Source: Imbricaverruca yamaguchii
Taxonomy: Eukaryota; Arthropoda; Thecostraca; Neoverrucidae
Length of the DNA stretch: 64,000 nt
NCBI GenBank assembly: GCA_034440575.1
Contig: JAOTOL010000866.1
Span: 62,001-126,000, forward strand
Reading direction: 5' to 3'
This document shows positions 18,798 to 54,001 of this stretch, in pieces. The notes beneath the pieces were generated by a model. That model had not been told where the DNA came from, did not search any database, and saw nothing but the letters and a program-made list of their open reading frames with translations. The position numbers and the translations under genes are program-made. Numbering within the stretch: the first letter of the stretch is position 1; each line of letters begins with the position of its first letter.

Positions 18798-18991
18798 CTC
18801 GTAGTTCTGCATTTTGCCGTCCAGCGCGGGAGCGCTAGTATCGGGGTCGAGGCTGAAGTTCACCACGATGGCCTCGGTGTGCTTAGGATTGGTCACGTGC
18901 ACACGCTGGCTTCTGGTGACGTAGCCGGGGGCGGTGACGGTCACCTCGTACTGCCCCGGGGTCAGCAGACGGTAATAGTCACCGTCACGGA
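18798..18991 (-). CDS. CPE: CPE exon 9: end of transthyretin-like domain
   Basis: Residues 388-452. The acceptor is GTGTGTTACAG|TC. Split codon T+TC gives F, then [20 protein letters not shown] and [15 protein letters not shown], the DGDYWRLLIPG block of CPE. The exon ends LDGKMQNYE at the strong donor TACGAG|GTAAGC, phase 0. Reading through would enter LINE-bearing intron. This donor is not amplified. Confidence 0.92.

Positions 18992-54001: not shown

Follow-up and report, generated by a model that had tools for sequence, protein, structure and literature searches.

Mirage-type minisatellites at the splice junctions of a carboxypeptidase E-like gene from a barnacle-like arthropod

The carboxypeptidase E-like gene described here has the structure that defines mirages, which are minisatellites spanning exon-intron boundaries and which have been described in amphioxus Adh3, the globins BflGb6 and BflGb9, troponin C and PGBD5 (available parts of PMC3087553 and PMC3902484). 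In the 64,000-nucleotide stretch of DNA that was analysed, hereafter the window, tandem arrays copying the neighbouring exon-intron boundary occur in 7 of the 9 introns of this gene and at 10 of its 18 junctions, namely the donors of exons 2 to 8 (D2-D8) and the acceptors of exons 6, 8 and 9 (A6, A8 and A9). Two of these ten are weak cases, D6 being degenerate and A6 carrying the AG without exon bases. It is probable that these mirage-type minisatellites were built by random tandem duplication together with a selective filter at the junctions, in introns that were once short, an explanation that draws on the DNA sequence of one gene in one haplotype.

The host gene and its junction arrays

The gene is complete and lies on the minus strand of the window, with ten exons and a CDS of 1497 nt encoding 498 amino acids. 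Its single stop codon is terminal, and the exon map, which was rebuilt independently, gives GT-AG ends at 9 of 9 introns.

15680..54001, minus strand: carboxypeptidase E-like gene, from exon map, homologs and tree
54001-53776, minus strand: exon 1
52608-52493, minus strand: exon 2
42685-42605, minus strand: exon 3
41498-41340, minus strand: exon 4
35092-34929, minus strand: exon 5
29130-28997, minus strand: exon 6
28664-28525, minus strand: exon 7
22376-22235, minus strand: exon 8
18991-18798, minus strand: exon 9
15820-15680, minus strand: exon 10

A homolog search with 376 residues from exons 2-9 returned 3680 matches, 120 of which were listed. Among the matches listed the closest were P0001 (74% identical) and, from the barnacle Amphibalanus amphitrite, carboxypeptidase E (68%); named amphioxus proteins were absent from these 120 of 3680. 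In a tree of 23 rows, comprising 22 homologs picked from those 120 together with the window protein, the latter clusters with P0001 and the Amphibalanus carboxypeptidase E with support of 100/100 and on a long stem. Because the protein groups with Amphibalanus at this support, the case is a crustacean one, and the host gene is most likely, as judged from its protein, that of a barnacle or close kin. An amphioxus origin, which the likeness to mirages might suggest, is rejected on the strength of this grouping and of the absence of named amphioxus proteins from the 120 listed matches. Carboxypeptidases N, D and M are among the relatives with a solved structure that were recognised by sequence.

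The window protein was also aligned over exons 2-9 with P0001, P0002, P0003 and P0012, and in this alignment there is no unit-size insertion at the array-bearing junctions. The copies next to the exons thus encode the conserved protein, which suggests that the exon-proximal splice site is the copy in use. The length differences seen in the alignment are of other kinds: P0002 is without the exon-3 segment, P0001 has 4 extra residues near the exon 3/4 boundary that P0003 and P0012 are also without, and exons 4 and 8 differ from P0001 by internal single-residue lengths.

The ten junction arrays are as follows.

50472..52523, minus strand: D2 array, exon 2 donor; 33-bp unit, CGCCGAGACAACCCCGAG and then, across the junction, GTGAGCCCTTCAACC; 81/114-bp higher-order forms
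42020..42640, minus strand: D3 array, exon 3 donor; 32-44-bp unit; 7 copies
38464..41348, minus strand: D4 array, exon 4 donor; 33-bp unit, in frame with the exon; 84 copies
32268..34947, minus strand: D5 array, exon 5 donor; 25-bp unit; 106 copies
28830..29000, minus strand: D6 array (degenerate), exon 6 donor; 32-bp period; outer limit approximate
27467..28530, minus strand: D7 array, exon 7 donor; 20/25/45-bp units; Tandem Repeats Finder (TRF) edge at 28512
19328..22258, minus strand: D8 array, exon 8 donor; 71-bp unit, split by TRF at 21127/21164; 38 copies
29131..29251, minus strand: A6 array, abutting the exon 6 acceptor; 37-bp unit with AG and no exon bases; weak
22328..24542, minus strand: A8 array, exon 8 acceptor; 67-bp unit with about 48 nt of exon 8
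18979..19109, minus strand: A9 array, exon 9 acceptor; 34-bp unit with the first exon bases; 3 copies

The units have periods of 20-71 bp, and are thus of minisatellite size and in tandem. Each combines exon bases, the boundary and intron bases at 9 of the 18 junctions (D2-D8, A8 and A9), with D6 degenerate and A9 in 3 copies, and within the window both 5' and 3' boundaries are involved, each with a unit specific to its locus. TRF returned 77 rows for the whole window, and no arrays in any of five Markov shuffles of it.

Every one of the 18 junctions was represented by a 20-mer (10 + 10 nt), which was scored in the adjoining intron with at most 4 mismatches. The 20-mer recurs at 8 of the 18 junctions, with 69 copies at D2, 7 at D3, 84 at D4, 106 at D5, 13 at D7, 38 at D8, 31 at A8 and 3 at A9. 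On the sense strand of the whole window, all of these copies (351/351) lie inside their own intron, and the opposite strand of the window has no matches. The GT or AG is intact in 351/351, although intact copies are what a limit on mismatches tends to select. Perfect matches to the authentic donor 9-mers are found farther along the arrays 65 times for D2, 7 for D3, 79 for D4, 105 for D5, 42 for D7 and 38 for D8. Some copies reach deeper into the exon: nine in the D2 array, whose distal part has a period of 20 by TRF, include 39 nt of exon 2; three longer ones in the D4 array include 45 nt of exon 4; and the A8 array holds 29 copies of a 48-nt exon head.

Three of the arrays call for reservations. 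At D6 the motif GGAGGTAC lies at -4 (the true site), 28, 60, 92 and 155, which gives the 32-bp period within an intron 6 of 332 bp; this array is undetected by TRF and scores 0 in the 20-mer test, and its count of degenerate copies was reached by 0 of 200 shuffles. Inspection of the sequence at A6 found 2 more copies, which end in AG and lack exon bases, and this junction scores 0 in the 20-mer test and P = 0.065 in a stricter 10-mer shuffle test. At A9 the copies and the exon disagree over the first bases, and for this reason the stricter 10-mer test gives it a score of 0. The remaining 8 of 18 junctions (D1, D9, A2, A3, A4, A5, A7 and A10) have no junction array; arrays sit 54, about 13 and 8 bp from A3, A4 and A5, respectively, and do not contain the site.

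With these reservations over D6, A6 and A9, the list of affected junctions given in the initial annotation is correct. It had also held that one kind of event was repeated at about ten junctions of one gene, and that this was not one repeat family spreading. Both statements agree with our results, the units being unrelated and their copies confined to their own introns within the window.

Origin, growth and retention of the arrays

The D2 array bears on the direction of copying. Its copies of the 39-nt exon 2 tail read CTC (Leu) in 8 of 9 cases and CCC in 1 of 9, where the exon itself reads GTC (Val), and Leu occupies the corresponding exon 2 position in 4 of 4 aligned homologs. Since the array has CTC and all four homologs have Leu, the array seems to keep the older codon, which argues that the exon was the source of the copies and that no later homogenisation with the exon took place. 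Copying was thus probably directed from exon 2 to the array. In the A8 array a 91-base outer flank recurs inside the array (87/91 identical), a trace of duplication on the scale of the array. This recurrence and the longer exon 4 tail copies fit unequal exchange with several unit sizes.

The ten exons, with the beginning of the 3' UTR added to exon 10, were scanned for duplications at a TRF score of 36. Three tandem duplications were found: the periods of two, 9 and 18, are divisible by 3, and the third, of 19 bp, runs across the stop codon. Duplications that occur everywhere and persist only where they do no harm would be expected to leave such a pattern, although three cases are few. Two of them lie in exon 10 or at its end.

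15648..15685, minus strand: 19-bp tandem duplication spanning the stop codon (CAG TGA ...), found by TRF
15749..15785, minus strand: in-frame 18-bp tandem duplication inside exon 10 (PEAGSR twice)

The duplication at the stop codon is a counterpart of the junction arrays; its first copy suffices.

Arrays of at least 80 bp make up 54.5% of intron bases versus 53.7% of bases outside the gene, and per kb of collapsed sequence there are 1.19 arrays in introns (20 TRF pieces; 1.14 for 19 merged) and 1.01 outside the gene. The locus is therefore generally minisatellite-rich. For these densities and for the event count below, TRF rows shorter than 80 bp or with fewer than 1.9 copies were dropped, and the unit lengths and the retroelement stretches removed were set by hand. 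Long minisatellites outside the gene lie at 850-4745, 8652-9626, 10855-15025, 54263-55009, 56351-57247, 60111-60643 and 62645-64000.

On expanded sequence, 8/18 junctions, 788/1500 positions in intron interiors, 805/1500 outside the gene and 133/1198 in exon interiors lie in an array, the controls being scored within 7 kb either side and the junctions within their own intron only. On these base counts there is no junction enrichment, in a comparison that counts copies and not births. In an event-based count, in which each of the 19 intron arrays was entered once on collapsed introns, 8 of the 19 span a junction, against 0.56 (pooled) or 0.92 (within intron) expected, or 0.78 or 1.01 when retroelement stretches are removed, with P at most 2e-6 throughout. 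D7 entered the count as a spanning array despite a TRF edge 12 bp into the intron; D6, missed by TRF, was left out. The target in this count is present-day unique intron sequence, 12.5-17.6 kb. For ancestral introns of 300, 200, 150 or 100 bp the expected number of junction-spanning arrays is 3.4, 4.9, 6.3 or 8.9, and the junction excess vanishes if ancestral introns measured about 100-150 bp, a length which is an assumption. About half of the 332-bp intron 6 consists of old decayed array missed by TRF, so that the intron sequence scored as unique by TRF can overstate ancestral length, intron 6 being the one intron for which this was shown.

It is possible, though we think it distinctly less than likely, that exon-intron junctions are true hotspots of tandem duplication at which arrays are preferentially born, for example by means of DNA breaks or R-loops linked to transcription or splicing, or of short repeats around the AG|GT site. 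The event-level excess of 8/19 arrays over about 1 expected on current collapsed introns speaks for a hotspot, as do the 7/9 donors hit when degenerate D6 is included. However, this excess hinges on the assumed ancestral intron length, the difference between donors (7/9) and acceptors (3/9) is not significant (P = 0.15), and the density of arrays is similar outside the gene. A slightly more doubtful version would tie hotspots to transcription or splicing and have them drive intron growth in this barnacle lineage, independently in amphioxus and barnacles. The mutational process seated at junctions that the initial annotation had put forward is accordingly possible but not required, given the similar array density outside the gene and an event-level excess that would be expected had the introns once measured about 100-150 bp.

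The same annotation had offered selection for reiterated splice sites, which could serve as back-up sites or could vary protein length by way of inner donors. The D2 and D4 units of 33 bp are multiples of 3, the read-through frame is open into the intron for 1590 nt from exon 4 (array 38464-41348) and for 2713 nt from exon 5 (array 32268-34947), and in eight arrays the splice dinucleotide keeps its first base in 382/391 unit copies and its second in 386/391. In the conservation test, which was made without D6 and A6, the dinucleotides have a relative divergence of 0.52 of the unit mean, a trend towards conservation that is not significant against random adjacent pairs (one-sided P = 0.15). Clear multiples of 3 amount to 2 of 10 units, D3 being mixed at 32-44 bp, and the read-through frames of the other seven donors close within 9-167 nt, that of exon 2 at 144 nt. 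There is no clear signal of selection maintaining extra splice sites, so this proposal is not supported and we consider it quite improbable. Copy number in long arrays is often misassembled, and yet it is very improbable that the arrays are an artefact of assembly or sequencing, since the average divergence among their units is 3-7%, there are position-specific variants and higher-order forms, and the coding exons are undamaged. The number of introns affected at once might also recall a mobile, introner-like intron family that spread into the gene, a reading to which we give almost no credence, because the 351 junction copies in this window keep to their own introns; no one family inserted as many introns was found within the window.

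Random duplication with a filter at the junctions, which we prefer, would proceed as follows. Short tandem duplications of 20-70 bp would arise throughout the region and then grow by unequal exchange. Those inside exons would be purged by selection unless the frame is kept, and those spanning a junction would be tolerated at any length. We propose that they are tolerated because a whole splice site comes with every copy and the copy nearest the exon gives back the original exon, so that the array would grow on the intron side only. Short introns could thereby become kilobase introns full of decoy sites. The short ancestral introns and growth by unequal exchange in this scheme are what we infer from the present arrays.

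Mirages in amphioxus and other junction duplications

Canestro et al. reportedly described mirages in amphioxus Adh3 in 2002. The initial annotation had taken this regularity to be without a described parallel, which is contradicted by the publications on amphioxus, where mirages received their name in Adh3 and were met again in genes for globins, troponin C and PGBD5, as far as the available parts extend. Amphioxus mirages occur at 5' and 3' boundaries, with units of 10-72 bp in Adh3 and 150-160 bp in the globins and with many copies carrying AG/GT (PMC3087553, PMC3902484, available parts). In the accessible portion of the globin paper, its authors report instability of mirage length and no apparent disturbance of regular splicing, and they suggest that mirages may contribute to intron gain (PMC3087553). 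The present arrays resemble these in having boundary-spanning units at donors and acceptors and a unit length that varies by locus. They differ in belonging to an arthropod, barnacle-like, and in affecting 10 of 18 junctions of one gene, and they reach about 2.9 kb and about 100 copies, whereas BflGb6 has 3 and 6 units in two haplotypes according to the text available. Amphioxus mirages have been examined for mRNA and instability, whereas the barnacle-like locus is known from the DNA of one haplotype.

Human segmental duplications contain internal tandem repeats at exon-intron boundaries, with an average unit of 30 bp, which can alter intron structure; in the part of the report available these have few copies (average 4), lie in recent paralogs and are proposed to form new introns (PMC2812944). 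Rogers' idea that introns are gained when AG/GT proto-splice sites are tandemly duplicated (as cited in the available part of PMC3087553) likewise involves duplicated splice-site sequence, but here existing introns appear to have been lengthened. Our literature searches found no earlier crustacean or barnacle case, and junction arrays go unmentioned in the available text of the barnacle genome papers PMC8270832, PMC8917513, PMC9582164 and PMC8416341. Reports on earthworm metallothionein and abalone calmodulin, in their available parts, describe other things. As far as these searches reach, the phylum and the extent of the mirages are new.

Amphioxus is extremely polymorphic. The same is reported, in the text available, for the barnacle Balanus improvisus (PMC8270832), and high polymorphism in both suggests a possible link to mirages. 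Within the literature searched, mirages were found described only from amphioxus, and their presence at 10 of 18 junctions in a distant phylum makes their cause testable. Among the questions raised are how minisatellites build introns from splice junctions, whether it is enough for the ancestral introns to have been short, and what leads the spliceosome to one donor when up to about 100 identical donors are present. Junction arrays may also upset gene annotation; a public Amphibalanus protein is without the exon-3 part of the gene, which is noted here with no implication as to the cause of the gap.

Other elements in the introns

The introns also contain retroelement fragments, at 16118-18600 (intron 9), 26780-27330 (intron 7) and 29790-31900 (intron 5). 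A reverse transcriptase domain was recognised in 30245-30868 of intron 5, and 16118-16711 of intron 9 has relatives with such a domain; the fragment at 26780-27330, like the outer limits of all three, was judged by eye. Intron 4 holds a tRNA gene.

37740-37812, plus strand: tRNA-Lys (CTT) gene, intron 4, antisense to the carboxypeptidase E-like gene

A tRNA-like stretch at about 37598-37660 appears, by eye, similar to this tRNA-Lys (CTT) gene.
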